From a virus, in IMG/VR virus record IMGVR_UViG_3300029258_002750, positions 1 through 64,000 of that record: a stretch of 64,000 bases of DNA; one strand, given 5' to 3'. The position numbers were made by a program, and so were the translations under genes. The notes beneath the pieces are model-generated. The model did no database searches. It had not been told where the DNA came from and saw nothing but the letters and a program-made list of their open reading frames with translations. Below, piece by piece: positions 12,002 to 38,950 of the stretch; positions within the stretch are counted from its first letter, which is position 1; each line of letters opens with the position of its first letter.

Positions 12002-12006
12002 TTGGT

Positions 12007-12079: not shown

Positions 12080-12083
12080 GCAA

Positions 12084-12154
12084 GCCCCGACTCGGAGTTG
12101 CACCGAGTTCTCCTCCGTACGAAAGAGGCACATCACTCTTTATGCTTTCGGGGC
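12084..12154 (-). tRNA. tRNA-Thr (CGU), A18/G55 class
   Basis: Acceptor GCCCCGA/TCGGGGC; loop TTCGTAC gives CGU. D-loop AAAGAGTGAT; T-loop TGCAACT. Confidence 0.82.
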
Positions 12155-12247
12155 AGGATCGGGCATGTCCCAAGAGCACCCGGCCCCTAGAAGGCCGGAC
12201 TCATGGGCGTGCATCGCAGCGCCTAGAACGCCGTGAGTCCCGATCAC
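12155..12247 (-). ncRNA. Structured spacer RNA, unassigned
   Basis: A closing helix GATCGGG/CCCGATC brackets two internal hairpins (ACTCA...TGAGT with GGCGT/ACGCC, and CCGGCC/GGCCGG), each with TTCTAGG in it. It lacks the ATGC/TACATC core of the Y-like elements. It is probably a structured RNA, but I cannot name it. Confidence 0.4.
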
Positions 12248-12330
12248 GGAGGAGGGGGGAGTCGCACCCCAACCTGACGGACCACCCGGATTCCAGCCGG
12301 GGCTCGGAGCTACTCCGAGTTCTCTCCTCC
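12248..12330 (-). tRNA. tRNA-Ser (GGA), class II, A18/G55 class
   Basis: Acceptor GGAGGAG/CTCCTCC; loop CTGGAAT gives GGA; long variable arm. D-loop AGTAGCT; T-loop TGCGACT. Confidence 0.83.
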
Positions 12331-12356
12331 AGCAGAGCTGGGTCAGCGCAGACCTG

Positions 12357-12926: not shown

Positions 12927-12939
12927 GGCTCTCTCCGAT

Positions 12940-13012
12940 CAGGGAGGCGGGAGTCGCACCCGCATGATGTCCTGGTCCCAAACCAGGCGGCTTACTGTTA
13001 GCCCACTCCCTG
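12940..13012 (-). tRNA. tRNA-Pro (UGG), A18/G55 class
   Basis: Acceptor CAGGGAG/CTCCCTG; loop TTTGGGA gives UGG on CCTGG/CCAGG. D-loop AACAGTA; T-loop TGCGACT. Confidence 0.85.
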
Positions 13013-13028
13013 GTGGCTGGTTGGTGGC

Positions 13029-13179
13029 ACGCAGACGAGGACTCGAACCCCGCAAAGACCATCGGCCTGGGCCGTTTCCTACGATAACCCGGAGCACCCT
13101 TCCCTCCCTCTCCGTTCCGAGCTTCGCGTAGGACTCCACTCGACACTGAGTTCGCTCGTGGCGCTCTGCCGATCTGCGC
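13029..13179 (-). ncRNA. Interrupted tRNA-like RNA with canonical T-arm
   Basis: The 3' part has T-arm CGGGG-TTCGAGT-CCTCG, acceptor TCTGCGT and an encoded CCACCA-like end. The matching 5' acceptor GCGCAGA lies 144 nt upstream, followed by a small D-like hairpin. About 70 nt of extra sequence, including TCCTACG/CGTAGGA, separates the halves. It could be an intron-containing tRNA or another tRNA-mimicking RNA. Confidence 0.4.
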
Positions 13180-13188
13180 ACCGATGAC

Positions 13189-13270
13189 GGAAGGCGGGAG
13201 ACTCGCACTCCAACCCGAAGGACGCACGCCTTAGCAGGGCGGCCCGGCTCGCTTGTCCGGTTCACCTTCC
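13189..13270 (-). tRNA. tRNA-Ser (GCU), class II, A18/G55 class
   Basis: Acceptor GGAAGGT/GCCTTCC; loop CTGCTAA gives GCU; long variable arm. D-loop with ACAAGCG; T-loop TGCGAGT. Its first nine bases contain the stop of the sulfotransferase gene. Confidence 0.82.
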
Positions 13271-13825
13271 AGTGGTCTTGGGGTAGCCGAAGCGATCGAA
13301 GTCGTCGCCCCACTTCTCGACTACCATCCGCTCGATCTCCGGCGTGTACTGGCTCTGCCAGTCGGCCGTGATCGGGCTCTGCGGGACGATGTGCAGCCGC
13401 TCGTTGGCGACGAACGGCAGCTCGCTGAAGCTCGCCTGGAGCTGTTCGTAGCGGATCAGCTGGGCGGGCTCGATCTCTCCCAGCCGAGCTGACTGGGACT
13501 CGAAGCCGGACCCTGCGGTCCTCTCAACGAAGGCCCCGAAGTCGTCCGGCCTCGCGCGGACGAACTCGCCCAGCTCGTTGGGCCACCGGGACACCCAGTT
13601 CCAGCAGGAGACCATTCTGCTGAATGGGTTCCTCACGGTCGCGATCACGAGGTAGCTCTCGCACCCGGTCGGGATCCCGATCCGATGCGTGAGCATCCGA
13701 CCGTCCTGCTCGCCGCCGATGCAGCCGAACCTGTCGCGCAGCGTGTGGAACACGCAGCGGGTGCCGGTCCGCATGTTGGCGAGGAAGACGAAACGGTGCG
13801 CGTGCGAGACGTTCATCTCGCGCAT
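13262..13825 (-). CDS. Sulfotransferase-family protein, 187 aa
   Basis: The N-terminal FLANMRTGTRCVFHTL fits the 5'-phosphosulfate (PAPS) binding loop, and VRNPFSRMVSCWNWV fits the 3'-phosphate binding motif of the sulfotransferase-2 family. The substrate is unknown. Candidates include a nucleoside, an RNA base or a host glycan, but that is speculation. Two starts are possible (13825 and 13816). The gene lies between tRNA-Ile(GAU) and tRNA-Ser(GCU), and its TGA stop falls inside the tRNA-Ser acceptor. Confidence 0.72.
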   Translation of the reverse strand: MREMNVSHAHRFVFLANMRTGTRCVFHTLRDRFGCIGGEQDGRMLTHRIGIPTGCESYLVIATVRNPFSRMVSCWNWVSRWPNELGEFVRARPDDFGAFVERTAGSGFESQSARLGEIEPAQLIRYEQLQASFSELPFVANERLHIVPQSPITADWQSQYTPEIERMVVEKWGDDFDRFGYPKTTGR

Positions 13826-13833
13826 CGTCGCAT

Positions 13834-13906
13834 AGGGCCACTGGGACTTGCACCCAGCGCCTCCGGCATATCAGACCGGCGCTCTACCTGCATGAGCTAT
13901 GACCCT
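13834..13906 (-). tRNA. tRNA-Ile (GAU), A18/G55 class
   Basis: Acceptor AGGGTCA/TGGCCCT; loop CTGATAT gives GAU. D-loop ATGCAGGTA; T-loop TGCAAGT. Confidence 0.84.
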
Positions 13907-13911
13907 GTGAT

Positions 13912-13986
13912 GGTCCCGGTCGGATTTGCACCGACAACCTCTTGGCCCTCGACCAAGCGCCTCTGCTGTTGGGCTACGAGACCGGA
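13912..13986 (-). tRNA. tRNA-Leu (GAG), short variable loop, A18/G55 class
   Basis: Acceptor GGTCTCG/CGGGACC; loop TCGAGGG gives GAG but with C33 in place of U33. The variable loop is short, unlike bacterial leucine tRNAs. D-loop AACAGCAGA; T-loop TGCAAAT. Confidence 0.74.
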
Positions 13987-13987
13987 C

Positions 13988-14052
13988 GCTCGACGTTGTT
14001 GGTGCCGCAGACGTGCATGTGTTCAGGATGTAGTCCACGACGGCATTCGAGC
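13988..14052 (-). ncRNA. Y RNA-like element, short form
   Basis: P1 GCTCGA/TCGAGC, then ATGCC, P2 CGTGGAC/GTCTGCG (two G-U pairs), loop start TACATC, 3' junction ending CAACG. There is no tRNA module. It lies two bases from the flanking Leu(GAG) tRNA. Confidence 0.6.
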
Positions 14053-14056
14053 TGAT

Positions 14057-14128
14057 GATCCTGGTCGGATTTGCACCGACAACCTCCGCATCCTGAGTGC
14101 GGCGCCTCTGCTGTTGGGCTACAGGATC
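14057..14128 (-). tRNA. tRNA-Leu (CAG), short variable loop, A18/G55 class
   Basis: Acceptor GATCCTG/CAGGATC; loop CTCAGGA on CCGCA/TGCGG gives CAG. D-loop AACAGCAGA; T-loop TGCAAAT; class I variable loop. Confidence 0.82.
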
Positions 14129-14132
14129 GTAT

Positions 14133-14203
14133 GTCCCGGGAGGGATTTGCACCCTCAACTCTGGTGTTTGAGACCAGCGGCGTTGCTATTAGCCTACCGG
14201 GAC
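14133..14203 (-). tRNA. tRNA-Leu (CAA), short variable loop, A18/G55 class
   Basis: Acceptor GTCCCGG/CCGGGAC; loop CTCAAAC on CTGGT/ACCAG gives CAA. D-loop with AATAGCAA; T-loop TGCAAAT. Confidence 0.82.
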
Positions 14204-14209
14204 TCTTCC

Positions 14210-14301
14210 GATGTTCTTTCCGCAGAACGTCGGTGTCTGACTGTTGCAGTTGGGGCAGAGGAAGCACCAGACCAGTGCCTCTGCTGTTGGGCTAGCGGAG
14301 C
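14210..14301 (-). other. tRNA-like 5' fragment
   Basis: It starts like a tRNA (GCTCCGC, TA, then a D-arm identical to that of the Leu tRNAs with AACAGCAGA), followed by hairpins but no recognisable T-arm or closing acceptor. It is probably a decayed tRNA. Confidence 0.35.
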
Positions 14302-14305
14302 TGGT

Positions 14306-14378
14306 AGGGCGCCTGGGAATCGCACCCAGCTTGGAAAGGGTTATAAGCACCTCCGCGACACCTAGCCGCCCGCGCCCC
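14306..14378 (-). tRNA. tRNA-Ile (UAU), A18/G55 class
   Basis: Acceptor GGGGCGC/GCGCCCT; loop CTTATAA gives UAU on a stem with one mismatch. D-loop GCTAGGTGT; T-loop TGCGATT. Confidence 0.75.
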
Positions 14379-14382
14379 TCAT

Positions 14383-14455
14383 GCCCCCGGTGGGAGTTGC
14401 ACCCACAATCTCTCGGTCCGTAGCCGAGCGCCTTAGTCTGTTTGGCCACGGGGGT
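14383..14455 (-). tRNA. tRNA-Arg (ACG), A18/G55 class
   Basis: Loop CTACGGA on CTCGG/CCGAG gives ACG. Acceptor ACCCCCG/CGGGGGC has a 1-72 mismatch. D-loop with AACAGA; T-loop TGCAACT. Confidence 0.82.
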
Positions 14456-14460
14456 TGGAT

Positions 14461-14531
14461 ACCCGGACTGCGAGTCGCACGCAGAACTCGAGGTCCACAA
14501 CCTCGCGTGATCACTGTTTCACCATCCGAGC
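14461..14531 (-). tRNA. tRNA-His (GUG), A18/G55 class
   Basis: Acceptor GCTCGGA/TCCGGGT; loop TTGTGGA on CGAGG/CCTCG gives GUG. D-loop AAACAGTGAT; T-loop TGCGACT. Confidence 0.83.
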
Positions 14532-14536
14532 TGGAA

Positions 14537-14606
14537 GCGGCCTGCGGGAGTTGCACCCGCGCGAAGAGCTTGGGAAGCTCTCATGCTGCTGCTACATCAA
14601 GGCCGC
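14537..14606 (-). tRNA. tRNA-Gly (CCC), A18/G55 class
   Basis: Acceptor GCGGCCT/AGGCCGC; loop TTCCCAA gives CCC. D-loop TAGCAGCAG; T-loop TGCAACT. Confidence 0.85.
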
Positions 14607-14672
14607 GTGCGCCGGATACCCAGGGGGGCTCCCCAGGCCAGCCGGTCCTTGCCGTGCTGCTTGCGATCCGAT
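14607..14672. other. 66-bp spacer, unassigned
   Basis: It has a GGGG/CCCC hairpin and a weak closing CGGAT/ATCCG pair. I see no gene in it. Confidence 0.25.
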
Positions 14673-14754
14673 CCGCCTGCGTGGATTCGCACCACGTTGC
14701 TCCGAAGAGACCCGGGTTACAGCCGGGCACGACCACTAGGTCGACCCCAGACGG
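14673..14754 (-). tRNA. tRNA-Tyr (GUA), class II, G55 class
   Basis: Acceptor CCGTCTG/CAGGCGG; loop CTGTAAC on CCCGG/CCGGG gives GUA; long variable arm TCTCTTCGGAGC. T-loop TGCGAAT; the D-arm is compact (GACC-TAGT-GGTC). Confidence 0.78.
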
Positions 14755-14759
14755 TTGAA

Positions 14760-14829
14760 GCGGCCTACGAGAATCGCACTCGTGACTACAGCATGGCAAG
14801 CTGTCGCGTTACTACTACGCCAAGGCCGC
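14760..14829 (-). tRNA. tRNA-Gly (GCC), A18/G55 class
   Basis: Acceptor GCGGCCT/AGGCCGC; loop TTGCCAT on ACAGC/GCTGT gives GCC. D-loop TAGTAGTAA; T-loop TGCGATT. Confidence 0.85.
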
Positions 14830-14839
14830 GTTGTAAGGG

Positions 14840-15017
14840 GCTCTCGCTGGGAATTGAACCCAGATCCTCCACACCACGATCGCTTCATAGCCGACCGAAG
14901 CCATCCACGGTCGCGCGGTCTGTGCGGCGTGCTTGCCATCCGACGAGCGTCAGAAACCGGGGCTGCTCGGCCCGGCACTGCGGTAGCTCGTGGACGACCC
15001 CATACACCATCGAGAGC
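14840..15017 (-). ncRNA. Interrupted tRNA-like or Y-like RNA with canonical T-arm
   Basis: T-arm CTGGG-TTCAATT-CCCAG and acceptor-like CGAGAGC lie at the 3' end; the complementary GCTCTCG lies 171 nt upstream and is followed by ATGGTGTATGGGG. That start resembles the 5' part of Y RNAs. The middle has several hairpins, including a 6-bp one whose loop contains CTATGAA. I cannot decide between an intron-bearing tRNA and a tRNA-mimicking Y RNA. Confidence 0.4.
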
Positions 15018-15103
15018 ATGTGTTCAGCTGGGCCATGAGGGAGTCGCACCCCCGCCTTCTCGGTGTGAACGAGATGCGCTTCTGTTACACCAATGGCCCG
15101 GGT

Positions 15104-15234
15104 TCCGACGACGTGAAGGCGACGAGAGGGTTATCTAGCCACCACGGCCCTCTCCACGAAAGCGGAGAGACTGGGAGTCGAACCCAGATCGATCGAGTTA
15201 CAGTCGATGTACTCCCATCAGGGCATTCGTCGGA
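15104..15234 (-). ncRNA. Y RNA-like element enclosing a permuted tRNA-Tyr-like module
   Basis: P1 TCCGACGA/TCGTCGGA (8 bp), ATGCC, P2 GATGGGAG/CTCTCGTC, then TAC. The interior first gives an anticodon arm ATCGA-CTGTAAC-TCGAT (GUA), a canonical T-arm (TTCGACT) and acceptor TCTCTCC (15164-15208). After an 8-nt linker comes GGAGAGG (15149-15155), which pairs with that acceptor. The D-arm is less clear than in the Leu and Met modules. Confidence 0.55.
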
Positions 15235-15235
15235 T

Positions 15236-15306
15236 GGAGTAGGTGGGAGTTGCACCCACGACCCTCGGTTTGCAGGACCGACGCTCTCCTACTGAGCTAC
15301 TACCCC
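15236..15306 (-). tRNA. tRNA-Ala (UGC), A18/G55 class
   Basis: Acceptor GGGGTAG/CTACTCC; loop CCTGCAA gives UGC, with C33 instead of U33. D-loop AGTAGGA; T-loop TGCAACT. Confidence 0.78.
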
Positions 15307-15311
15307 AAGAC

Positions 15312-15382
15312 GGCCCCCGTGGGATTCGCACCCACAACCTCACGGTCCAAAGCCGCGCGCTCTGCTGTTGAGCTAGGGGGCT
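15312..15382 (-). tRNA. tRNA-Gln (UUG), A18/G55 class
   Basis: Loop CTTTGGA gives UUG. Acceptor AGCCCCC/GGGGGCC has a 1-72 mismatch. D-loop AACAGCA; T-loop TGCGAAT. Bases 8-10 supply the stop codon of the 15373-15624 frame. Confidence 0.82.
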
Positions 15383-15624
15383 AGGTTCTTCTCGCGCTCG
15401 CGCGCTCGAATGATCGCAAGCTCGACCTTGCGCTCGCGGGCGGTCTTCTTCCCGCGCTTCTTCGCCAGGCACGTGTAGCAGTGCCTCGGCGGTTGGTGGC
15501 CGCTCCGCGCGGCCCGTTCGATGTGCTTCAGCTTGATCGGCCGATCGCACGCCCTGCATCGTCGGCCGCTCTCTTCAGCGAAGTGCGGCCAGTGGTAGTC
15601 CTTCTCTCGCTTGTTGGTGGCGAT
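15373..15624 (-). CDS. Small zinc-finger protein, possible ATC start, stop inside tRNA-Gln
   Basis: An 83-codon frame has CRAC and CYTC pairs separated by a basic helix and followed by a highly basic tail (KKRGKKTARERK), which suggests a nucleic-acid-binding zinc finger. No ATG, GTG or TTG precedes the conserved part. The only signal is AGGAGG followed by ACT-ATC, so either a rare ATC start is used or the 5' end is damaged. The TAG stop is formed by tRNA-Gln(UUG) positions 8-10. Confidence 0.45.
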   Translation of the reverse strand: MATNKREKDYHWPHFAEESGRRCRACDRPIKLKHIERAARSGHQPPRHCYTCLAKKRGKKTARERKVELAIIRAREREKNLAP

Positions 15625-15644
15625 AGTCCTCCTGGCTGGCGGAT

Positions 15645-15716
15645 AGCGTCGCCCGGATTCGAATCGGGATCCTCACAGGTTATGAGCCTGGCGAGCTACC
15701 GTTGCTCTACGACGCG
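15645..15716 (-). tRNA. tRNA with CAU anticodon (Met), canonical elbow
   Basis: Loop CTCATAA; acceptor CGCGTCG/CGACGCT with an unpaired C1-U72 as in the initiator, but without the GGG/CCC anticodon pairs. D-loop AACGGTA and T-loop TTCGAAT are canonical. Confidence 0.78.
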
Positions 15717-15718
15717 AC

Positions 15719-15791
15719 GGCCCCCCTGGGATTTGCACCCAGAAACCTCCGGTTCCAGAGACCGGCGCTCTACTGATTGAGCTAGGGGGCT
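15719..15791 (-). tRNA. tRNA-Gln (CUG), A18/G55 class
   Basis: Loop CTCTGGA on CCGGT/ACCGG gives CUG. Acceptor AGCCCCC/GGGGGCC. D-loop AATCAGTA; T-loop TGCAAAT. Confidence 0.84.
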
Positions 15792-15794
15792 AGG

Positions 15795-15861
15795 CGCCCG
15801 ACGTTGGTGGTTGCCGTGTCGAGCACATGTTGGAGATGTAGACACAGCTGGCATTCGGACG
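15795..15861 (-). ncRNA. Y RNA-like element, short form
   Basis: P1 CGTCCGA/TCGGGCG (7 bp, one G-U), ATGCC, P2 CTGTGTC/GACACGG, loop start TACATC, 3' junction ending CAACG. There is no tRNA module. The CGTCCGAATGCC start is the copy most like metazoan Y RNA 5' ends. Confidence 0.62.
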
Positions 15862-15863
15862 AC

Positions 15864-15934
15864 AGGCCGCCTGGGAATCGCACCCAGCAGACGGCAGGTT
15901 TTGGAGACCCGCCCGCGTACCTAGCGCGCGACCT
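15864..15934 (-). tRNA. tRNA-Trp (CCA), A18/G55 class
   Basis: Acceptor AGGTCGC/GCGGCCT; loop CTCCAAA on CGGGT/ACCTG gives CCA. D-loop CTAGGTA; T-loop TGCGATT. Confidence 0.8.
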
Positions 15935-15938
15935 AGAA

Positions 15939-16009
15939 GTGCCGCCCCGGAGTTGCACCGGGCTCTTCGGTGTTGCAGACCGACGGATGAACTGATCTCC
16001 CTGCGGCAC
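15939..16009 (-). tRNA. tRNA-Cys (GCA), A18/G55 class
   Basis: Acceptor GTGCCGC/GCGGCAC; loop CTGCAAC on TCGGT/ACCGA gives GCA. D-loop GATCAGTTCA; T-loop TGCAACT. Confidence 0.83.
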
Positions 16010-16014
16010 GTGGC

Positions 16015-16085
16015 TTACCCCCTGGGATTCGCACCCAGAACATCCTGGTTAACAGCCAGGCACTCTACTATTGAGCTAGGGGTAA
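16015..16085 (-). tRNA. tRNA-Asn (GUU), first copy, A18/G55 class
   Basis: Acceptor TTACCCC/GGGGTAA; loop CTGTTAA on CCTGG/CCAGG gives GUU. D-loop AATAGTA; T-loop TGCGAAT. Confidence 0.85.
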
Positions 16086-16086
16086 C

Positions 16087-16157
16087 TCAGCCCCTCGGAT
16101 TTGCACCGAGACCTCCTCCGGTAACAGCGGAGCGCTCTACTACTAAGCTAGGACTGA
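16087..16157 (-). tRNA. tRNA-Asn (GUU), second copy, A18/G55 class
   Basis: Acceptor TCAGTCC/GGGCTGA; loop CTGTTAC on CTCCG/CGGAG gives GUU. D-loop AGTAGTA; T-loop TGCAAAT. The stems differ from the first Asn copy. Confidence 0.83.
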
Positions 16158-16158
16158 T

Positions 16159-16229
16159 GACCCGGACGGGAATCGCACCCGCACTCTTCGGCGTGAGAGA
16201 CCGACGTGTTTCTGTTACACCACCGGGCC
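16159..16229 (-). tRNA. tRNA-Glu (CUC), A18/G55 class
   Basis: Acceptor GGCCCGG/CCGGGTC; loop CTCTCAC gives CUC. D-loop TAACAGAAA; T-loop TGCGATT. Confidence 0.84.
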
Positions 16230-16233
16230 AGAT

Positions 16234-16304
16234 GGGCCTGCTCGGATTTGCACCGAGAACATCCTGGTTAAGAGCCAGGCGTGATCCTGTTTCACCACAG
16301 ACCC
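16234..16304 (-). tRNA. tRNA-Lys (CUU), A18/G55 class
   Basis: Acceptor GGGTCTG/CAGGCCC; loop CTCTTAA on CCTGG/CCAGG gives CUU. D-loop AAACAGGAT; T-loop TGCAAAT. Confidence 0.85.
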
Positions 16305-16308
16305 AAGC

Positions 16309-16381
16309 GGGGAGATTCGGGAGTTGCACCCTCATTCACCGGCACGTGCTGCCGCTCGTGACGGATACCTGCTCGGTCCCC
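16309..16381 (-). tRNA. Irregular tRNA-like gene, possibly Val (CAC)
   Basis: A D-loop with CAGGT and a T-loop TGCAACT place it in the A18/G55 class. Only 5 bp of acceptor (GGGGA/TCCCC) pair, and the best anticodon loop, AGCACGT, has G33. It may be degenerate. Confidence 0.4.
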
Positions 16382-16386
16382 AAGAC

Positions 16387-16460
16387 GGCCGCGACGGGAT
16401 TCGCACCCGCGATCTCCACCGTGACAGGGTGGCATGTTGACTTGGCTACACCACGCGACC
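16387..16460 (-). tRNA. tRNA-Asp (GUC), A18/G55 class
   Basis: Acceptor GGTCGCG/CGCGGCC; loop CTGTCAC on CCACC/GGTGG gives GUC. D-loop TAGCCAAGTCAA; T-loop TGCGAAT. Confidence 0.84.
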
Positions 16461-16466
16461 AGGTTG

Positions 16467-16602
16467 ACGTCCGAGTGAGGGAACCGCGAGTAGGTGCTCT
16501 TCCACTTGAGCTAGTTCGCCCCGAGTGGCGAACCCTGGAGTCGAACCAGGAACATCCCGCTGATGAAGCGAAAGTGCGTGTAGGATTCTCTCGGCCGGAC
16601 GC
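16467..16602 (-). ncRNA. Y RNA-like element enclosing a permuted tRNA-Met module
   Basis: P1 GCGTCCG/CGGACGT and P2 GAGAGAATC/GGTTCCCTC (one mismatch) enclose a complete tRNA in permuted order. The 3' half (16527-16572) has TTCGC-TTCATCA-GCGGG (CAU), T-arm CCTGG-TTCGACT-CCAGG and acceptor GTTCGCC. A 6-nt linker follows, then GGCGAAC, TA and a perfect D-arm GCTC-AAGTGGAA-GAGC (16495-16520). Joined at position 26/27, the parts give a 72-nt cloverleaf with canonical G18-G19 and U55. This is the clearest permuted module. Confidence 0.68.
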
Positions 16603-16606
16603 CGAT

Positions 16607-16677
16607 GGGACCCCTCGGAATTGCACCGAGACCTTCCGGTTTTCAGCCGGGTGCTCTACTGGTTGAGCTAAGGCCCC
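16607..16677 (-). tRNA. tRNA-Phe (GAA), A18/G55 class
   Basis: Acceptor GGGGCCT/GGGTCCC; loop CTGAAAA gives GAA. D-loop AACCAGTA; T-loop TGCAATT. Confidence 0.82.
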
Positions 16678-16812
16678 AAGACAGCGAGTTGTCAATGAGC
16701 AGTGCGTTGACGCGCCGATCCGACTAGCTAGGTCAGGGGCAACGCCCTCGTCTTGTGCTTCCCTGGACTGAGGAGGCCGCGATTCCTTTCCACGATTCTC
16801 CTTTTGTCCTAA
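16678..16812. other. 135-bp leader-like gap between Phe and Thr tRNAs
   Basis: On the - strand it has TTGACA (16689-16694) just before tRNA-Phe and a 21-codon frame with a good ribosome binding site (AAAGGAGA). Neither is convincing alone. Confidence 0.25.
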
Positions 16813-19095: not shown

Positions 19096-19407
19096 CTAGG
19101 ATTTCGCGAGTCTCCCCATCTCTGACACAGCGTCGGTGAGTGCAAGCCTCGCCAAGCGGACCGCCTCATCGAGCGTGTCGAACCGACAGCGCTCCAGGAA
19201 GGCGTCGTCGCGGCTCGACGGCATGGGCTCGTACTCCCACTTACCGACGCAGTTCAGGCAGCGTGATCCGCAGATCACCTTCCACTTGATGCTGCCGTCG
19301 ATCTGACCCATGCGATTCACCGTCACGCGGCGAAGCTCGTCGAGCTTGGCGATCTCGTACTCGGTCGCGATCGGCTCGTCGTGGATGGTGATGCCACCGT
19401 GGATCAT
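19096..19407 (-). CDS. Hypothetical protein, 103 aa
   Basis: ATG 19407. It has a CGSRCLNCVG cysteine cluster and a helical C-terminus whose TDAVSEMGRLAKS is a possible diverged copy of the recurrent peptide. The start codon overlaps the end of the next gene upstream. Function unknown. Confidence 0.6.
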   Translation of the reverse strand: MIHGGITIHDEPIATEYEIAKLDELRRVTVNRMGQIDGSIKWKVICGSRCLNCVGKWEYEPMPSSRDDAFLERCRFDTLDEAVRLARLALTDAVSEMGRLAKS

Positions 19408-19712
19408 GTCCTGGTCTCCTCTTCACGTTTTACCCAGGACTCGTTCGACGTCCTGTGCGCAGAAGACTGGGCAACCACCGGCCACTCGATGTCTTCACTG
19501 ATCGCGTTCGCCAGGAGGGTCACGACGTCGTCGGGCTCCTCGAGATCCGATGCCCAGCACGACCCAGCGTGATTGTCAACCGTCTTCCACTGGTACCGCA
19601 TCACGATCACGTGCTCGTTGAAGAACGGAACCGAGCCGGTGATGCGCACCCGGTGGCGCTCCCGGTGGTGTCGGAGGATGTAGGTACCGCCGATCTTAGG
19701 CTGGATCTTCAT
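19404..19712 (-). CDS. Hypothetical protein, 102 aa
   Basis: The N-terminal 60 residues are beta-rich (GGTYILRHHRERHRVRI). The segment EEPDDVVTLLANAISED looks like a variant of the recurrent peptide (compare LPDDAVTRLGDLVRDD at 26.2 kb). It is coupled to its neighbours by short overlaps. Confidence 0.58.
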   Translation of the reverse strand: MKIQPKIGGTYILRHHRERHRVRITGSVPFFNEHVIVMRYQWKTVDNHAGSCWASDLEEPDDVVTLLANAISEDIEWPVVAQSSAHRTSNESWVKREEETRT

Positions 19713-20004
19713 CGTCCAGCTCCCCCAGCGACACGATGGCCGACCGCTCTTGCACCCACGCGGCGAAAACCACGCTCACCAGTTCGGGGAGGTCGGGGCC
19801 GGTCGCCTGCGCGAAGTAGCCGATGTGATCGATACGCGCGCCTGCGGGAGGTACGGGTTTGTCGCGTATCGACTCCGGTCCCCAGTGGCGTAGTTTGCGG
19901 TGGCCGTCCCCGGTCGAGACAGTCACCACGTAGTCGCCGTCCTCGCGGAAGCAGACGGTCGCGTTCATCCGCTCGAGTCGTCGAATCGTCTTGTCGTCGA
20001 TCAT
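19696..20004 (-). CDS. Hypothetical protein ending in SAIVSLGELDD
   Basis: The protein has 102 residues from ATG 20004, which overlaps the upstream stop. Residues 20-60 suggest a small beta domain (DYVVTVSTGDGHRKLRHWG). The C-terminus ERSAIVSLGELDDEDPA is a copy of the recurrent peptide with an acidic tail. Its end overlaps the next gene by 17 nt. Confidence 0.58.
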   Translation of the reverse strand: MIDDKTIRRLERMNATVCFREDGDYVVTVSTGDGHRKLRHWGPESIRDKPVPPAGARIDHIGYFAQATGPDLPELVSVVFAAWVQERSAIVSLGELDDEDPA

Positions 20005-20327
20005 CGCGCCAGGTCTGCCAGCTGATCGATCGCCGAGGGCTCGGTCAGCGCTGACGCCCAGACGCGGACCCGAGCTTCCGTCTGTGCGCCAAACTCGATC
20101 GAGCCGTTGCCAGCGATACCGTTCAGAGTGAGCGTCTCGCCATCTCGGAGGAGGGTCGGTCCCACGCCGCCCTGGCCGCCAATTCTCGCGACAACATCGC
20201 CGCCCTCGGCCGCGAGCATGAGCAGGTCCGTCGAGATGTGGTTCGGGATGCACCGGACGATCGACTGGCACTCCGGTACGACGACCTCCTCGTAGAACTC
20301 GACGCGGATGTGGGGCAGCTCAGGCAC
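20001..20327 (-). CDS. Hypothetical protein ending in PSAIDQLADLA
   Basis: The protein has 108 residues from GTG 20327. The middle is beta-rich and Gly-rich (ARIGGQGGVGPTLLRDGE). The last 12 residues, EPSAIDQLADLAR, are a near-consensus copy of the recurrent peptide. A copy of the GTCAGCGCTGAC palindrome lies in codons just before it. Confidence 0.6.
   Translation of the reverse strand: MPELPHIRVEFYEEVVVPECQSIVRCIPNHISTDLLMLAAEGGDVVARIGGQGGVGPTLLRDGETLTLNGIAGNGSIEFGAQTEARVRVWASALTEPSAIDQLADLAR
20044..20055. repeat. 12-bp palindrome GTCAGCGCTGAC
   Basis: Second copy of the palindrome seen at 6916; coding, next to the recurrent peptide. Confidence 0.5.
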
Positions 20328-20541
20328 GGGGCTTCCCCCACACCGCGATGTCGGCCAGGCGGTCGACCACCGAGGCGGGCCGCAGATCGTAGCCGTCTGG
20401 GGAGACGTAGCGGTTCGGGTGCCCGTGCCAGCAGACCTCGACGACCGGCCGGGGAACCCGGAGGCCGCTGTCGTCCTTCACGAGCCGCCCGACGCGGCGT
20501 TCGCCCTCGACCCTGACCAGAACCCACTCCGGCTGCTCCAT
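20320..20541 (-). CDS. Small SH3-like protein with SVVDRLADIA peptide
   Basis: The protein has 73 residues from ATG 20541. A TAGAAC core ends 6 nt upstream, fitting a leaderless mRNA. The fold pattern (EWVLVRVEGERRVGRLV, RPVVEVCWHGHP) is a small beta barrel. The near-terminal PASVVDRLADIAVWG is a copy of the recurrent peptide. Confidence 0.6.
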   Translation of the reverse strand: MEQPEWVLVRVEGERRVGRLVKDDSGLRVPRPVVEVCWHGHPNRYVSPDGYDLRPASVVDRLADIAVWGKPRA

Positions 20542-24086: not shown

Positions 24087-24632
24087 ATGATGACCCGATT
24101 TTCCAGGCTCGCGGTTCTGGCGCTGGCCCTAGTTCTACCCAGCGGATGCGTCATGGTGGACAAGGCGGCGGACGCCATGGGCTACGAGACCTACGATCTC
24201 GAGGAGGAGTGGGCTCCCCTCGTCGTGATGGCCGAGCGGCCAGATATGCTCGGCGGCGAGAACCAGATCACCACAGTCGGCAACCATCTGTATGTCGAGT
24301 CGATCGATAAGTGGCTGACGAAGAATCCGCCCGGCAGCAGCTCCTATCGCGCCAAACTGCGCCACGAACAGGAGCACTCGAAGCGCCAGTTCGCGATGGG
24401 CGTGCTGCTCTGGATCGCTCGCTACAGCACCGATCCGGCATTCATGTGGTTCCAAGAGAGGTGCGGCTGGTACTACGAGATCAAGGGAATGCCGTGGCGT
24501 CGATCCGAGGAGATCGCTCTTATCCTGAAGGGCTACAAGGGTCTGCTCGGCCGCATGATCTCCTACGAGGATGCGCTCGAGTGGGTGAACGAGGTGAAGG
24601 CCGGAACCTGGGAACCGCCTCCGATCGAGTAG
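24087..24632 (+). CDS. Lipoprotein, 181 aa
   Basis: The start is taken at ATG 24087 (a second ATG follows immediately). A short basic N-terminus, a hydrophobic stretch (LAVLALALVLP) and a lipobox-like PSGC near residue 20 indicate a lipoprotein signal peptide. The mature part has HEQEHSKRQFAMG, possibly a metal-binding helix. It is probably membrane-anchored; the role, perhaps in lysis or exclusion, is unknown. Confidence 0.65.
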   Translation: MMTRFSRLAVLALALVLPSGCVMVDKAADAMGYETYDLEEEWAPLVVMAERPDMLGGENQITTVGNHLYVESIDKWLTKNPPGSSSYRAKLRHEQEHSKRQFAMGVLLWIARYSTDPAFMWFQERCGWYYEIKGMPWRRSEEIALILKGYKGLLGRMISYEDALEWVNEVKAGTWEPPPIE

Positions 24633-24647: not shown

Positions 24648-24656
24648 GGGTAGAAC
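24648..24656 (+). promoter_or_regulatory. GGGTAGAAC promoter-like motif before the small-gene cassette
   Basis: It lies in the 37-bp gap before ATG 24670, followed by GTAGCAGG. Confidence 0.55.
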
Positions 24657-24669: not shown

Positions 24670-25089
24670 ATGACCGTCCGCACACTACCCGTAGCTCCGA
24701 TCAACACCACGGCCAGCGAGCTAACGGCTGCGGTCGCGCGCGTGCAGGAGAAGATCGCGGCCCGGCGCATGATCGGCGAGCTGTGGAGCCCGGAGATGAC
24801 CGGCCGGATCCGACTCACCAGCGCCTCGCACGTCGTCGTCGGCCTGCGCGTGAAGGAGGACGGGTCGCTAGAGGCCGACTTCGAGTTCGTGGACAACGAG
24901 CAGGGGAGGATGGCCGAGAGTTTCGCTGAGATTGGCACCTCCTACCCGGTGCACGGCACACTTCGAGCCTACGGAACGAGTCGCGGTCGCCTGGTCCGCG
25001 ACCTGGAGATCATCACCGTAGACCTGAGCGTCGGCGACTACCCGGACAACCCGTGCGCCATCGATCTCCTCGGGGATGTCGTCCGATGA
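24670..25089 (+). CDS. Hypothetical protein ending in CAIDLLGDVV
   Basis: This is the first of seven overlapping small genes, 139 residues. The body has alternating strands and helices, and the end is NPCAIDLLGDVVR, a copy of the recurrent peptide. Its stop overlaps the next ATG. Confidence 0.6.
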   Translation: MTVRTLPVAPINTTASELTAAVARVQEKIAARRMIGELWSPEMTGRIRLTSASHVVVGLRVKEDGSLEADFEFVDNEQGRMAESFAEIGTSYPVHGTLRAYGTSRGRLVRDLEIITVDLSVGDYPDNPCAIDLLGDVVR

Positions 25090-25493
25090 GCACCGTAGAG
25101 AGGGCGAAGCGCGAGATCCTCGAACGGTTCGAGCGACGACTACAGAAGGAGATCCGAGCCCAAGGGGGCGGGGATGTTCCGCCGTGGGTGAAAGCTGGCA
25201 TGGCGCTGATCAACCAGTCCCGGCTCCACGATCCGCTGCGCCCGCCGATCGTGTCGGTCCAGCCGATGACCCAGCCGGTTGGCGGCATCACCTTCTACCG
25301 ACCCCGGTACGGCAGCTGGGAGCCCTCGGCCGTCGATCGGCTAGCCGCGCTGGCCGAACCCGATAGCGAGATGGCGAAGAGGATCGCGGAGTACGACGAG
25401 CAGGAACGGCGGCAGGAGGAGTTCTTCCGCAGGCACGCGAGGGCGATTCTGATGCTGGGATCCAAGGACGAGCGAAGGGAGATGTCGTCGTGA
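25086..25493 (+). CDS. Hypothetical protein with extended PSAVDRLAALAEPDSEMAKR motif
   Basis: The protein has 135 residues. The N-terminal 35 residues are a charged helix. WEPSAVDRLAALAEPDSE, then a charged helix, is the long form of the recurrent peptide. It shares the D-x-E-(I/V/M)-x-K-(R/K)-(V/I/L) extension with proteins at 25861, 26604 and 46396. Confidence 0.6.
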   Translation: MSTVERAKREILERFERRLQKEIRAQGGGDVPPWVKAGMALINQSRLHDPLRPPIVSVQPMTQPVGGITFYRPRYGSWEPSAVDRLAALAEPDSEMAKRIAEYDEQERRQEEFFRRHARAILMLGSKDERREMSS

Positions 25494-25864
25494 GCGCGGC
25501 CGACGACTGGGGCAAGGACGAAGACCGCGATCTCATTGCCGAGCTGGGCGATCTGTCCTGCCCGCCCGAGGAGCAGGTGCTTCGCCGCCGGAAGCGCAGC
25601 TTCAAGCACTGGCTCCACACGTCAGTTGGCGTCGGCATCAGCTCGCGCGGCACCGGAGAGCGGAAGGACGATGTCGAGAAGATCTCCAAGACCTACGACG
25701 AAGGGAACGAGCAGCAGCGGACGATACTCGACACCTTCCGCTTCGTGACCGAAAGCACCAAAACCCACATCGAGCGGCTCGGCGCCGAGTCCTTCATGAC
25801 GACAGCGGATCGATGGGAGAGCGTGAGGAAGCTGGCCGATCGGGCGGCCGAGGATGGCCTGTGA
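25490..25864 (+). CDS. Hypothetical protein, 124 aa
   Basis: It starts at GTG 25490, overlapping the previous stop. The protein is charged and mostly helical. DLIAELGDLS near the N-terminus may be a weak version of the recurrent peptide. No domain recognised. Confidence 0.52.
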   Translation: MSAADDWGKDEDRDLIAELGDLSCPPEEQVLRRRKRSFKHWLHTSVGVGISSRGTGERKDDVEKISKTYDEGNEQQRTILDTFRFVTESTKTHIERLGAESFMTTADRWESVRKLADRAAEDGL

Positions 25865-26109
25865 ACGATCCAGACGAACTGCCCGAGGACTGGGACGATC
25901 TGCCCGAGATCGAGCTGAACATCCGCTCCGAGGAGGTCATCGCCAAGCCGAGGAAGCTGCGAATCGCCGGTCTACCAGCCGAGCCCTCTGCCGTCGAGAA
26001 GCTCGGGGCGGTGGTGGATCCTGAGGTGCAGAAGAAGCTGGAGGACTACGACAAGGCGAGGGCTCGTTTCGATGAGATGCTGGCTGATCTGAGAGCGCTG
26101 TGGGGGTAG
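25861..26109 (+). CDS. Small protein with PSAVEKLGAVVDPEVQKK motif
   Basis: The protein has 82 residues from GTG 25861. After an acidic N-terminus and a short beta part, EPSAVEKLGAVVDPEVQKK leads into a coiled-coil-like helix ending DLRALWG. It is a long-form copy of the recurrent peptide. Confidence 0.58.
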   Translation: MNDPDELPEDWDDLPEIELNIRSEEVIAKPRKLRIAGLPAEPSAVEKLGAVVDPEVQKKLEDYDKARARFDEMLADLRALWG

Positions 26110-26369
26110 CTTCTACCAGGCTCAAGTGCTACGGCGAGGTCAACTACAAGACCGGCGAGCTGCTCATGGTCTTCGACAAGCCGCCGCCGAAGGGGGGCTA
26201 CGTCACGGCCGACTACATGATGCTGCCAGATGACGCGGTCACACGACTCGGCGACTTGGTTCGGGATGACAATGAGAAGCGAGCGCCGAGCGTGTTCGCC
26301 GGACCGTTCGTCCAGGGGGAAACGATACGCGGCGACGTATCCGGCATCCGGCCCGGGAAGACTAAGTGA
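26100..26369 (+). CDS. Small protein with internal DDAVTRLGDLVRDD
   Basis: The protein has 89 residues from GTG 26100. The first half is a small beta unit (CYGEVNYKTGELLMVF); LPDDAVTRLGDLVRDD is internal, between two ordered parts. Confidence 0.55.
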   Translation: MGVASTRLKCYGEVNYKTGELLMVFDKPPPKGGYVTADYMMLPDDAVTRLGDLVRDDNEKRAPSVFAGPFVQGETIRGDVSGIRPGKTK

Positions 26370-26623
26370 ACACCCAGGGCTCTGGCGGCGGAGGCGGCGC
26401 TTGCACCATCGTCTACGGCGTCGGCACGATCACGATGGGCGGCGTCGCCGGAGCTGATGGAAGCAACGGCAGGCTGACGCCTAGCATCACCGCCGGGGGT
26501 GGCGGGGGAGGCGCGGGCGGCAACGGTGGCGGAGTCATCTTCGTGCACCCTCGGCGTCTTCCACGGAGCGCGGTCGAGCAGATGGGCGACCTGGTGCGGG
26601 ACGATGAAGATCCAGATGCTTGA
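26366..26623 (+). CDS. Glycine-rich small protein ending in RSAVEQMGDLVRDD
   Basis: The protein has 85 residues from GTG 26366. Two Gly-rich tracts (GSGGGGGAC, GGGGGGAGGNGGG) flank a short beta strand. The C-terminus PRSAVEQMGDLVRDDED is a copy of the recurrent peptide. Confidence 0.55.
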   Translation: MNTQGSGGGGGACTIVYGVGTITMGGVAGADGSNGRLTPSITAGGGGGGAGGNGGGVIFVHPRRLPRSAVEQMGDLVRDDEDPDA

Positions 26624-26936
26624 CGGTGGCGAGGTCGACGTACCGGCCAACGGCTGTATCGACGCGGGCCAGATGCTCTTCGTCCGCATCGACGGGACCG
26701 TGACCGGACATCAGGATGGGAAGTCACCGGCGATCGGCATCGCGGTCGAGTCGAGCGGACCGCTTGAGCCATCGGCGGTCGAGAGGCTCGCGGCGATCGA
26801 GGACCCCGAGATTAAGAAGCGGGTGGACGCTTGGGATCGGCGGAACACACTCCACCTCGCGCCGTTCGACCCGGTGCCCGATCCTTCGGCGCCAGGTGCG
26901 GTGCCGCTTCTAAAGGACGCTCTGCGTTCTTCATGA
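26604..26936 (+). CDS. Small protein with PSAVERLAAIEDPEIKKR motif
   Basis: The protein has 110 residues from ATG 26604. The N-terminal half looks like a small beta domain, then LEPSAVERLAAIEDPEIKKR and a proline-rich tail. It is the last gene of the cassette, and its end overlaps the convergent gene by 125 nt. Confidence 0.55.
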   Translation: MKIQMLDGGEVDVPANGCIDAGQMLFVRIDGTVTGHQDGKSPAIGIAVESSGPLEPSAVERLAAIEDPEIKKRVDAWDRRNTLHLAPFDPVPDPSAPGAVPLLKDALRSS

Positions 26937-29284: not shown

Positions 29285-30025
29285 GTGAGTGACGATGTAA
29301 ACGGAAACGAGCCGGTCAACATTACCCCAGGCGACGACGGCGCTCACCCCGCTTCGACCGATCCCGAGGTCTTGCGCGCGCAGGCCGAGCTAGTCCTTGC
29401 CCAGGCACGGCTGAAGGAGGCCGAGGCAAAAGAGCGAGATTCCGAGACGAAGGCGGACAAGGCCCACACTCCGCTGGTCGACCGGATCATCATGCGCGGG
29501 CTCATTCCGATCGCACTGCTCATCGCCACCCCACTCGCGACCTACTACTTCACCGACCGGGCCGAGGAGGGCATCCGCCAGGTCCAGGCGACGAACCAGG
29601 AGGTCGAGGAGGCGGTCGCCGAGCTGGATCAGCTGGGCGGGCTGGTGACCCAACTCGACGGGCTCTTCAAGGGGGCTGACCAGAGGATTCAGGAGATGGA
29701 CCAGGCGCGGGCCGCCGAGCTGACCGCCCTGCGGGTGCTTGTCACCAGGCTGGATGATGCGCTCAAGCTCGTGCTGATCCAGATGACCATTGCCCAGGCC
29801 GCCGAGTCGCACTTCGACGAGCTGCGGGCGAACGGCGGCGCCGGGATGTCGAAGGGAGGGGTACTCGCCTCGTTCCGCGCTCGGCGCGAGAAGGTCGTCA
29901 AGCAGGCGCAGCAGCAGATCCAGACGCAGTGGCCGGGCGACGACGACGAGATCCGGGAGAAGGCCGAGGCCGCGTTCGACCGCTACCTAGAGACCCAGGA
30001 ACAGCTCCAGTACCAGGACGAGTAG
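29285..30025 (+). CDS. Membrane-anchored coiled-coil protein, 246 aa
   Basis: GTG 29285 with GAGGTGAGG upstream. An acidic and then Ala/Glu-rich helical N-terminus precedes one transmembrane segment (GLIPIALLIATPLATYYF, about residues 79-96). A long coiled coil with regular heptads and a Gln-rich tail follow. Topology suggests an inner-membrane anchor. Possible roles are in exclusion or organisation of replication; neither is shown. Confidence 0.6.
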   Translation: MSDDVNGNEPVNITPGDDGAHPASTDPEVLRAQAELVLAQARLKEAEAKERDSETKADKAHTPLVDRIIMRGLIPIALLIATPLATYYFTDRAEEGIRQVQATNQEVEEAVAELDQLGGLVTQLDGLFKGADQRIQEMDQARAAELTALRVLVTRLDDALKLVLIQMTIAQAAESHFDELRANGGAGMSKGGVLASFRARREKVVKQAQQQIQTQWPGDDDEIREKAEAAFDRYLETQEQLQYQDE

Positions 30026-36296: not shown

Positions 36297-37304
36297 ATGG
36301 CCGGTCGAGCCAGTCGAGCCAAAGCCTCGGATGTGATCAGGGCGCTGAAGGGGCGTGGTGGGCTCACGCCCCTGACACCGCCTCCGCCATGTCCGCCCCC
36401 TCCGGTGGCCATCAAGATGCCATCGCCGAAGGTCGCGCCGAAGGCAACCCAGAAGGCGCCGCCGCCGAAGAAGAACGGCAAGGCCGATAAGGACTTCTAC
36501 CTCAGGCCGTCGTGGTACGACGACCTGAAGGCGTTCGTGGACGCAGGCGTGTCGGTGCTCCTGATCGGCCCAGCTGGCTCCGGCAAAAGCCGGGGCGTGA
36601 AGGAGGTCTTCAAGGAGCGGCAGCAGTTCCTCCGCGTCGTCTCGTGTACGCCGAGGCTGAACGCGAACGACCTGGAGGGCGACTTCGATCTGCTCGTCGA
36701 GAACGGCAAGCAGGTCACCAAGTTCTCCCCCGCCGGTCCCGCTCTGGCCAGCCAGCATGGCGATGGGCTTCTGTTCGATGAGGTGGACGCGGCCCCGGCC
36801 GAGGCTATGTACTCGGTCTACCGGCTCCTCGACGGCGAGGAGATGCACATCGTTCGCAAGGGGCAGGACGCGCTCGTCCAGCGGCATCCCGAGCTGCGGA
36901 TCGTCGGGACGCAGAACACCGAGGGGCGCGGCGACGATCGTGGGCTCTACCACGGCCGGTCGCACCAAGACGAGGCGTTCCTCGACAGGTGGGAGAACAC
37001 GATTCGGGTGAGCTATCCCACGCCCGACGACGAGGCGGTCATCCTCTGCGGTCGGACCGGGATTGGCGAGGTCCAGGCGAAGCGGATCGTGGCGGCGGCC
37101 AACGCCTTCCGGGCCGCGCTCGCGAACGGCGACGAGATCATGTTCACATGCTCGTTGCGGCGGACGCTCGCTGTGGCCGCGAACCTCGCGCGCGGTCACA
37201 CGCCCAGGCGCGCCTGGGAGTTCGCGGTGCTCAATCGGGCGACTCCCGAGGACGCGGCCAGGATGCCCGAGACGCTGAACAGGATCTACGGAACGAAGTG
37301 GTAG
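36297..37304 (+). CDS. MoxR-type AAA+ ATPase (second)
   Basis: The protein has 335 residues from ATG 36297. A proline-rich N-terminal linker is followed by LIGPAGSGKSRGV (Walker A), GLLFDEVDA (Walker B) and IVGTQNTEG (sensor 1). It pairs with the VWA gene overlapping its end, repeating the arrangement at 1.9-4.4 kb. Confidence 0.82.
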   Translation: MAGRASRAKASDVIRALKGRGGLTPLTPPPPCPPPPVAIKMPSPKVAPKATQKAPPPKKNGKADKDFYLRPSWYDDLKAFVDAGVSVLLIGPAGSGKSRGVKEVFKERQQFLRVVSCTPRLNANDLEGDFDLLVENGKQVTKFSPAGPALASQHGDGLLFDEVDAAPAEAMYSVYRLLDGEEMHIVRKGQDALVQRHPELRIVGTQNTEGRGDDRGLYHGRSHQDEAFLDRWENTIRVSYPTPDDEAVILCGRTGIGEVQAKRIVAAANAFRAALANGDEIMFTCSLRRTLAVAANLARGHTPRRAWEFAVLNRATPEDAARMPETLNRIYGTKW

Positions 37305-38950
37305 CTCGCCGTGCGCTGATGGACGCGCAGCAGTCTGTCGTTACTGGGCTGCTGCGAGAGGGGGTGACGGTCGTCTTCGACGCCGAGACTCCCTATGCGG
37401 ACCTTCACGCGCGCGTGATGCACGTGCGCCCGTTGCCGGAGGAGGTTGACGAGACGGCGCTCCTCCATCTGCGGGCCGACTGCGACCACGAGATGTGCCA
37501 TCTCGCTCAGTCCGATCCGAAGGTGCTCGACAAGATCGAGCGGCCGATGCTCAAGCTGGTCCACAACGCGATCGAGGACGGCTTTGTCGAGCTGTGGGGC
37601 TCGTCGATGTGGTTCGGTGTGGCTGAGAATCTACGCCGCTCAAACGCGCTGGTCAGCGCAGACCTGCGAGAGAGGGCGACCGGGGCTCGGTCGTGCACGC
37701 GGGCGCGCGCTGTCAGCGCTCTCCAGTTTCTCGTCATGGGCGAGGACACCAAGGACGTGTGCGATCGGCTCGGCGATGACATTCGCCCGCTGATCGGGGA
37801 GATCGGCGGACTCCTCCCAGAGCTTCGCCAGGTGCGCAGTAGTTCGGCCGGGCGAGTTGTGGCCGAGAAGGTCTGCGACATCTGGCGCTGGGGCAACCGC
37901 TCCGAGCCGAGGAACAAGCCGCTGTGTGCCGATGAGAAGACGCGCGCCCGAGAGGACAAGGTAGCCGTGCAGCTCGAAGCGATGCCCACGCTCGCCAAGG
38001 CCAGGAAGAAGGTCATTCGCACGATCGGGGCCGCGCCCGGTTCCTATCGCGCTTACACCAACCGCGACGTTATCGAGACGGTGCAGGTTACGGCCGATCA
38101 TAGGACCGGGGTGAGCGAGTTCATTCGCTCGGTCCGGCACGTGGTGCCGCCGCTCCGTAGGCGGCTGCTGATGGAGTTCCGGTCGGTCGGTCGGCGCTAC
38201 GAGTACGACCGCAGGAGCGGTCAGCTCGACCGCAGCGCCCTTCACCGTGTTGCGCTCGGCGACGACCGGGTCTTCAGGCGCGAGGTTCCTGTTCCCGTGG
38301 TCGATGCCGATGTGACCCTACTGGTGGACATCTCCGGGTCGATGACGCTCAAGGCGCCGTCCGGCGGCACGCGCATTCAGCTGGCTGCCCAGGCGGCTGG
38401 CGCAACCAGCATGGTGCTGGACCTGATCGGCGTCTCGAACGAGTGCCTGGCGTTCACGACGCGCGACAGCTTCGTTCCGCCCGGTGTGCGCGTGTCCTTC
38501 GATCGCGGCGTCTACCAGCGAGTACGCGCGCTCCGTCACCTGGTGGTCAAGGACGTCCGCCAGAGTTTCCGCCAGGCGCGCGCGGCCTTCGTGTCGATGG
38601 CGGAGTTCATGGGCTGCGACGAGAACATCGACGGCGAGTCCCTGCTCTGGGCGGCTCGCAGGCTCCTCGCGCGCGCGAGACCCGGCGTTGTGCCCATCCT
38701 GATCGTCTACAGCGACGGCGAGCCCGCCAGTTCGCCCGAGGAGGCGCACGTTCTCGCTGACCACCTCAAGCGGTCCGTCGAGCGGATCACCGCCGCTGGC
38801 GTCGTCGTGCTGATGATCGGGATCGGTACCGACTCCGTACGCCGTTTCTGCCGGGACTCAACGGTGATCGGCAACATAAGTGATCTGACGGAAGCGAGTT
38901 ACGAGCTGCTGCGTAGGGTGCTCCGGCGATCTCAGAATCTCCGATTCTGA
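37298..38950 (+). CDS. VWA-domain protein with HExxH, CobT-like, MoxR partner
   Basis: The start is GTG 37298, overlapping the MoxR stop (ATG 37319 is the alternative). DHEMCHLAQ carries HExxH; a central helical region follows; DISGSMTLK is the MIDAS motif and YSDGEPAS a metal-loop strand. The fold resembles CobT/DUF2201 proteins that act with AAA+ partners. The target is unknown. An identical 17-bp word to that at 12341 lies in this gene (37651). Confidence 0.75.
   Translation: MVARRALMDAQQSVVTGLLREGVTVVFDAETPYADLHARVMHVRPLPEEVDETALLHLRADCDHEMCHLAQSDPKVLDKIERPMLKLVHNAIEDGFVELWGSSMWFGVAENLRRSNALVSADLRERATGARSCTRARAVSALQFLVMGEDTKDVCDRLGDDIRPLIGEIGGLLPELRQVRSSSAGRVVAEKVCDIWRWGNRSEPRNKPLCADEKTRAREDKVAVQLEAMPTLAKARKKVIRTIGAAPGSYRAYTNRDVIETVQVTADHRTGVSEFIRSVRHVVPPLRRRLLMEFRSVGRRYEYDRRSGQLDRSALHRVALGDDRVFRREVPVPVVDADVTLLVDISGSMTLKAPSGGTRIQLAAQAAGATSMVLDLIGVSNECLAFTTRDSFVPPGVRVSFDRGVYQRVRALRHLVVKDVRQSFRQARAAFVSMAEFMGCDENIDGESLLWAARRLLARARPGVVPILIVYSDGEPASSPEEAHVLADHLKRSVERITAAGVVVLMIGIGTDSVRRFCRDSTVIGNISDLTEASYELLRRVLRRSQNLRF

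Follow-up and report, generated by a model that had tools for sequence, protein, structure and literature searches.

A short helical peptide shared by unrelated small proteins of a T4-like jumbo phage: a candidate docking tag

The record and the cassette

The locus described here lies at 24670-26936 of the window, by which we mean the whole stretch of DNA that was analysed, i.e., the first 64 kb (64,000 nucleotides) of a 275,101-bp virus record from IMG/VR (IMGVR_UViG_3300029258_002750) with a G+C content of about 65%. The major capsid protein (MCP), portal, sheath and baseplate wedge of the record match T4-like families, and the record is a T4-like jumbo phage. Its intact MCP gene is located at 194762-196195 of the record, and the nearest named relatives of this MCP are about 30% identical. 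No DNA match to the record was found among the INPHARED phages, and a search of bacterial genomes with the MCP found no host. Using a home-made codon-bias gene caller, 404 genes were called in the record, referred to as G000. The relatives with which it was compared (G001 to G006) are fragments. G005, with a median identity of 50% to G000, and G006 stem from one sample, G006 ending at the MCP adjoining the start of G005, and both are probably parts of one genome.

Several further features were observed along the way. A tmRNA (tag ANAPVRLAA) lies at 8946-9300 of the window, amid approximately 35 minus-strand tRNA genes (window 6525-16678; 36 tRNA genes were counted in all), and a gene pair at 36405-38950 of the window resembles the CobS/CobT cobaltochelatase subunits. 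At 170537-175789 of the record (L010:7537-12789), a 1750-aa protein carries a helicase at its front, followed by parts that by eye appear 2H-phosphodiesterase-like and HExxH metallopeptidase-like.

The cassette and its surroundings comprise the following features (window coordinates).

24087-24632, plus strand: left flank, predicted lipoprotein with an HEQEH zinc-site motif (by eye)
24648-24656, plus strand: promoter-like element GGGTAGAAC, about 14-22 nt before the ATG at 24670, from 7-mer enrichment upstream of genes
24670-25089, plus strand: gene 1, 139 aa, degenerate prohead-protease (T4 gp21-like) head and C-terminal tag CAIDLLGDVV (25054-25083)
25086-25493, plus strand: gene 2, 135 aa, MCP piece (MCP residues 67-126), tag SAVDRLAALA (25326-25355) and second helix
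25490-25864, plus strand: gene 3, 124 aa, piece with a protease-like SSRGTG motif; degenerate tag-like DLIAELGDLS
25861-26109, plus strand: gene 4, 82 aa, MCP piece (MCP residues ~246-267), tag SAVEKLGAVV (25987-26016) and second helix
26100-26369, plus strand: gene 5, 89 aa, piece like the MCP insertion domain (~209-247) and tag DAVTRLGDLV (26232-26261)
26366-26623, plus strand: gene 6, 85 aa, Gly-rich head and C-terminal tag SAVEQMGDLV (26567-26596)
26604-26936, plus strand: gene 7, 110 aa, head with no recognised relative, tag SAVERLAAIE (26772-26801) and second helix
26812-27234, minus strand: right flank, Zn-ribbon-like ORF, conserved beside the cassette (G005 102039-102320)

As described in the initial annotation, the seven tiny plus-strand genes (82-139 aa) overlap, by 4, 4, 4, 10, 4 and 20 nt in turn, and share a recurrent peptide, in the following called the tag. 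It had been counted on six or seven genes: six carry it with position weight matrix scores of 26-32 (26 in gene 1), and gene 3 has a degenerate version only (score 2.6). Gene 6 was missed by the codon-bias caller, which called the other six; we regard it as real because a tagged orthologue exists in G001 (55% identity, E 2e-21). Gene 7 likewise has a G001 orthologue (69% identity).

The heads, i.e., the proteins apart from the tag, had been taken to share nothing but this peptide. The tag does sit on unrelated heads throughout the genome, but the cassette heads are not without relatives: three to four derive from the MCP and one or two from the prohead protease, as pieces of these proteins. 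Gene 1 matches the prohead protease HMM with E 1.7e-5 and its orthologues with 1.4e-7 and 4e-17 (the latter in G005), and by eye the GELDHP-type and SSRG catalytic motifs appear altered in gene 1 and its orthologues. The protease match of gene 3 is weak (E 0.29). Gene 2 is 44% identical to the phage's own MCP (E 2e-9; MCP HMM E 3e-9) and conserved in G001 and G005; its AlphaFold2 (AF2) model is of low confidence (pLDDT 60). The T4 gp23 stretch aligned to it, ICGVQPMNSPTG..., includes what we take to be the Gol region that triggers Lit. Gene 4 matches the MCP HMM with E 3e-4, and gene 5 matches the G001 MCP with a phmmer E of 6e-4 and the MCP HMM weakly (E 0.43). The nearest MCPs belong to the own clade for genes 2 and 5 and to foreign clades for gene 4 (33.1 bits against foreign T4-like MCPs vs 24.6 for the own clade).

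Occurrence of the tag

The tag also occurs far outside the cassette. Its consensus is P-[S/D]-A-[V/I]-[D/E]-[R/Q]-L-[G/A]-[D/E]-[L/I/V]-[A/V]-R, with a core of ten residues. A position weight matrix was grown from the peptide and trained on G000; the relatives serve as an independent test. In G000, 121 of 404 proteins carry the tag, compared to 2 reversed and 0-1 shuffled proteins at the same threshold. This is about one third of all genes of the record, mostly small ones, with a median of 107 aa vs 161 aa for the remaining proteins. In the relatives the tag was found in 46/211 (G001), 13/111 (G002), 3/52 (G003), 25/86 (G004), 35/157 (G005) and 105/271 proteins (G006), with 0-1 matches in the reversed controls. 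Carriers are dense on both strands at 88-178 kb of the record and rare (approximately 4 out of 78) in the structural region at 200-275 kb. No tag was found in a sister clade (MCP 65-69% identical; structural regions with 139 genes), nor in samples of two more distant T4-like phages or in two named outgroups, and a degenerate DNA scan of IMG/VR detected multi-copy tags in this clade only.

Carriers in the window, apart from the cassette, include:

212-484, plus strand: tagged small gene
6875-7144, minus strand: tagged gene; in G001 the tail that follows its tag, SADLGSGNTGPPSVLP, sits on another head
7192-7404, minus strand: tagged gene with a barrel-like head; in G001 this head is joined to the 6875-7144 tail, with the junction within the tag codons
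19096-20541, minus strand: operon of small genes, four of five tagged (19096-19407, 19696-20004, 20001-20327, 20320-20541)
40880-43639, plus strand: DNA polymerase I type protein with two to three internal tags in its N-terminal half (residues 54, 150, 266)
46396-46623, plus strand: tagged small gene of the long-tag type
57865-58221, plus strand: tagged small gene, tag at the C-terminus

Except for the polymerase, the replication core proteins of the window are absent from the high-scoring carriers, and thus a simple replication-compartment signal does not fit. A beta-clamp-binding motif was considered, as the phage encodes a beta-clamp and the tag can read DQLGDLV; it was rejected as a main idea because not every copy needs the Q and the distance between the two L residues is wrong for such a motif. 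A PDB search with the long-tag profile gave nothing below E 0.28. In the openly available journal literature, we found no described counterpart for a shared C-terminal motif in phage proteins.

Selection, position and form of the tag

The tag is conserved as protein and not as DNA. When G000 is compared with G001, the tag core has a dN/dS of 0.22, as against 0.42 for the other parts of the 36 proteins concerned and 0.31 for small genes without a tag, and 36 of the 40 orthologue pairs with a tag on either side keep it on both. Synonymous codons are near the genome average at most conserved positions, and Ser is encoded by TCN as well as AGY. An excess of Ser TCG and Asp GAT in the tag leaves room for a degree of common DNA ancestry or for a function at the DNA level.

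Approximately half of the 313 tag copies (52%) lie within 5 aa of the C-terminus and 72% within 20 aa. The distance ranges from 0 to more than 30 residues and the last residues are not conserved; the tag is thus presumably recognised as a motif rather than as an end. The core opens with a helix cap, S/D-A-V-D/E. For a nine-member family, AF2 predicts a barrel with a C-terminal helix at the tag (pLDDT 85). Phage barrels of a similar kind in BFVD (52-58 aa) cover only about 60 of the 84 residues of this model, and the helix thus looks like an addition to the barrel. The cassette typically has a longer form of the tag, SAVDRLAALADPE..RV..WDE.., with a second helix.

Heads of the tagged proteins

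Once the tag is masked, none of the tagged G000 proteins matches another (E<1e-3), and 293-297 tagged heads from four records fall into 212 clusters. The picture of different heads on one tail, originally drawn for the cassette, holds for the genome as a whole. PHROGs and Pfam searches of the heads mostly gave no match, and tblastn against phages found nothing. Where Pfam domains were recognised, they comprise RNase H, SNase, WGR, phage Zn fingers, a DnaB paralogue, DNA methylase, the L7/L12 C-terminal domain, Agenet, the DnaJ Zn region, prohead protease and Gp23. SH3/Tudor-like barrels, Zn-ribbons and nucleases are among the head types. The barrel hallmark GDxV is enriched in tagged proteins, with 34/100 tagged vs 10/127 untagged in G006 (p 1e-6) and 16/103 vs 7/142 in G000 (p 0.007). 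One barrel of a tagged family (L161:4669-4920) shows a weak likeness to the Lon specificity factor HspQ (5ycq; Foldseek E 0.22, not significant).

An HMM built from 81 MCPs matches 12 of 293 tagged heads at E<0.01, compared to 1/558 untagged small genes, 0/879 shuffled and 0/293 reversed sequences. These pieces derive from different parts of the MCP and measure 20-85 residues each, without a complete capsid fold; for pieces of 20-30 residues no single match is strong, and the case for them is made by comparing the whole group with the controls. In the G005/G006 set, one member matches Pfam S77 (E 4e-4). Altogether, recognisable MCP or protease pieces make up only about 6% of the heads. A G005 protein (5x_98292) was read as a polymerase piece from the motif RxxxKxxxFxxxYG alone, which it is the only one among all proteins to match; no significant HMM match for polymerase was obtained. 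Two tiny genes at 103592-103750 and 223708-223905 of the record, one tagged and one untagged, resemble pieces of the portal protein.

Exchange of heads and tails

It had been suggested to look for gene swapping at the peptide boundary between related phages. Such swapping is seen at the nucleotide level near the cassette and at the protein level inside it. The clearest case is the locus 6875-7404. G001 29372-29656 equals G000 7192-7404 at 72% up to the tag codons GAGCTGGT, and past the tag it equals the tail of G000 6875-7144 at 94%, with 5 nt shared at the junction. Inside the cassette, the protease-like head of G005 carries the tail type of gene 6 and not that of gene 1.

Gene content varies as well. 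Between the HEQEH lipoprotein, which adjoins the cassette in G001 and G005 too, and the Zn-ribbon gene there are seven genes in G000, eight in G001 and about twenty in G005. The G001 cassette lacks gene 5 and has two genes absent from G000; in G005 two neighbouring genes are fused. A single fold in an order conserved among distant phages, which would have spoken against a family of exchangeable heads, was not observed, as the gene order is kept in the close relative G001 and not in G005. A cyclic descending order of the MCP pieces in the G005 cassette was considered and dropped as not significant (p 0.14 and 0.26).

Promoter-like elements

A genome-wide scan yielded approximately 60 sites of GGGTAGAAC in the record, shortly before start codons. 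The element precedes most operons with tagged genes, the cassette included, and is nearly absent from the structural region. In many cases it overlaps the stop codon of a tagged gene that lies upstream. We infer that it acts as an early promoter, and its position suggests short-leader or leaderless transcripts. A second element, TGTGAGAAC-N12-TTGTTGAGAG, lies about 26-30 nt before other start codons (window 1851 and 20620, and approximately nine sites in the record). No T4 late promoter TATAAATA was found.

Interpretation

A peptide that is conserved at the protein level, helical, mostly terminal and present on unrelated proteins has the look of a docking or sorting peptide. We propose that the tag would be a short docking helix, capped and amphipathic (S/D-A-V-D/E...), which exposes V/I, L, G/A and L/V. 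Placed on more than 100 small and, judging from their promoter class, presumably early proteins, it would let all of them plug into one common partner, either phage- or host-encoded. Each head would then be an interchangeable binding module, such as an SH3/Tudor-like barrel, a Zn-ribbon, or a nuclease or other enzyme domain, and new family members would arise through recombination at the tag. Within the cassette, the capsid and protease pieces may be decoys catching what recognises the real phage proteins, be it immune sensors of the host or components of rival phages; the tail would then pass this catch on to the common partner or tether it there. Adaptors and decoys together would serve host takeover and counter-defence. 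We consider this model close to, though short of, an even bet, and its decoy role for the cassette pieces is the element most open to doubt. The broader picture of a plug-in adaptor platform is held more tentatively: one docking helix on 100-140 small proteins, heads recruited from binders of cell and phage machinery, scrap capsid, protease and polymerase pieces as bait, and recombination at the helix.

The cassette heads, taken from proteins touched by immune systems and rivals, fit bait or poison. Several defence systems, CapRel and Lit among them, are known to be triggered by capsid proteins (PMC9712102). An anti-defence function of the cassette is plausible. With MCP and protease pieces accounting for so few heads, the decoy reading may not extend beyond the cassette. 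The pieces could also poison the capsid assembly of co-infecting or superinfecting T4-like phages, with the tag aiding oligomerisation or stability. Their origin from many parts of the MCP, the prohead protease and the portal would suit such a role, as would the pieces nearer to foreign MCPs than to the own clade, and inhibition of virion assembly is among the known exclusion strategies (PMC10884400). However, the best-conserved piece, gene 2, is closest to the own clade and might harm the phage's own assembly, and the other roughly 100 tagged proteins would be left unexplained, which makes this reading unlikely. Somewhat less probable again is a capsid-targeting signal as in T4 internal proteins, by which the tagged proteins would be packed in the prohead and injected with the DNA. 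The T4 proteins also join one short signal to variable, early-acting proteins, the present phage is T4-like, and capsid and protease pieces could well sit in a prohead. Yet T4 signals are N-terminal and removed by gp21, whereas the tag is mostly C-terminal or internal and by eye no cleavage motif was noticed around it; tagged genes are rare in the structural region, from which their promoter class is nearly absent, and more than 100 cargo types would be many.

Other explanations concern the tag itself. A selfish in-frame peptide-coding element, spreading in the genome and tolerated near C-termini, would be in line with the copies within capsid pieces and the DNA polymerase, with the exchange junction in the tag and with the slight codon bias common to the copies. 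Against it, synonymous sites have diverged and the protein has not, nearly all orthologue pairs keep the tag, and no DNA-level repeat or target-site pattern was seen; dN/dS and codon use would by themselves already make such an element unlikely, and we give it little credence. We give just as little to the idea that the tag is a degradation signal setting the time at which early proteins are removed. The tag is short, mostly C-terminal and borne by small early-type genes, many copies end in ..LA or ..LV, and one barrel resembles HspQ, but that likeness is not significant and both the distance to the C-terminus and the last residues vary. Finally, the tag could be a DNA or RNA signal at gene ends (promoter, ribosome site or recombination site) that is read as protein by chance, as the frequent overlap of GGGTAGAAC with stop codons of tagged genes might suggest. 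Near-background synonymous codons, the low dN/dS, the switching between Ser codon types, and tag copies inside genes or at operon ends render this extremely improbable.

Most small genes of giant phages are of no known function, and the tag offers a handle on about 120 of them at once. It would tie one third of the genes of a phage into a single system. Should the cassette heads prove to be decoys, they would reveal the segments of capsid, protease and polymerase that a phage gains by concealing from hosts or rivals. In addition, a docking tag of this kind would represent a modular tagging system of natural origin, which might be put to use as a tool.

Comparison with known systems

Rickettsia palindromic elements are in-frame mobile peptides, encoded by DNA repeats with palindromes. 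They likewise place one peptide inside unrelated proteins, but here selection acts on the peptide, the copies are mainly C-terminal, and they are not alike as DNA in the way copies of a mobile in-frame element are. C-terminal degrons of the ssrA type have fixed residues at the very C-terminus; the tag has a variable end without fixed last residues, which speaks against a plain C-degron.

The capsid targeting sequence (CTS) of T4 internal proteins is N-terminal, cleaved by gp21 and found on a handful of late proteins. Both systems attach one short signal to different variable phage proteins. The tag differs from the CTS in its promoter class, in its more than 100 carriers and in its mainly C-terminal position, given above, which speaks against capsid targeting of the T4 type. 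The encapsulation or cargo-loading peptides of bacterial microcompartments and encapsulins are short, terminal amphipathic helices or peptides on unrelated proteins that address one partner, and the tag, too, is a short helical, mostly terminal peptide on unrelated proteins. In contrast to these systems, the context is a phage in which no such shell protein was identified, and the heads are small binding modules and pieces of phage proteins.

Gene 1 and its G005 orthologue are homologous to the prohead protease (gp21/S77). The head of gene 2 is homologous to the stretch of the T4-like MCP gp23 that bears the presumed Gol region sensed by Lit; unlike gp23, it is a 60-residue piece that carries a tag and is encoded separately from the intact MCP gene.
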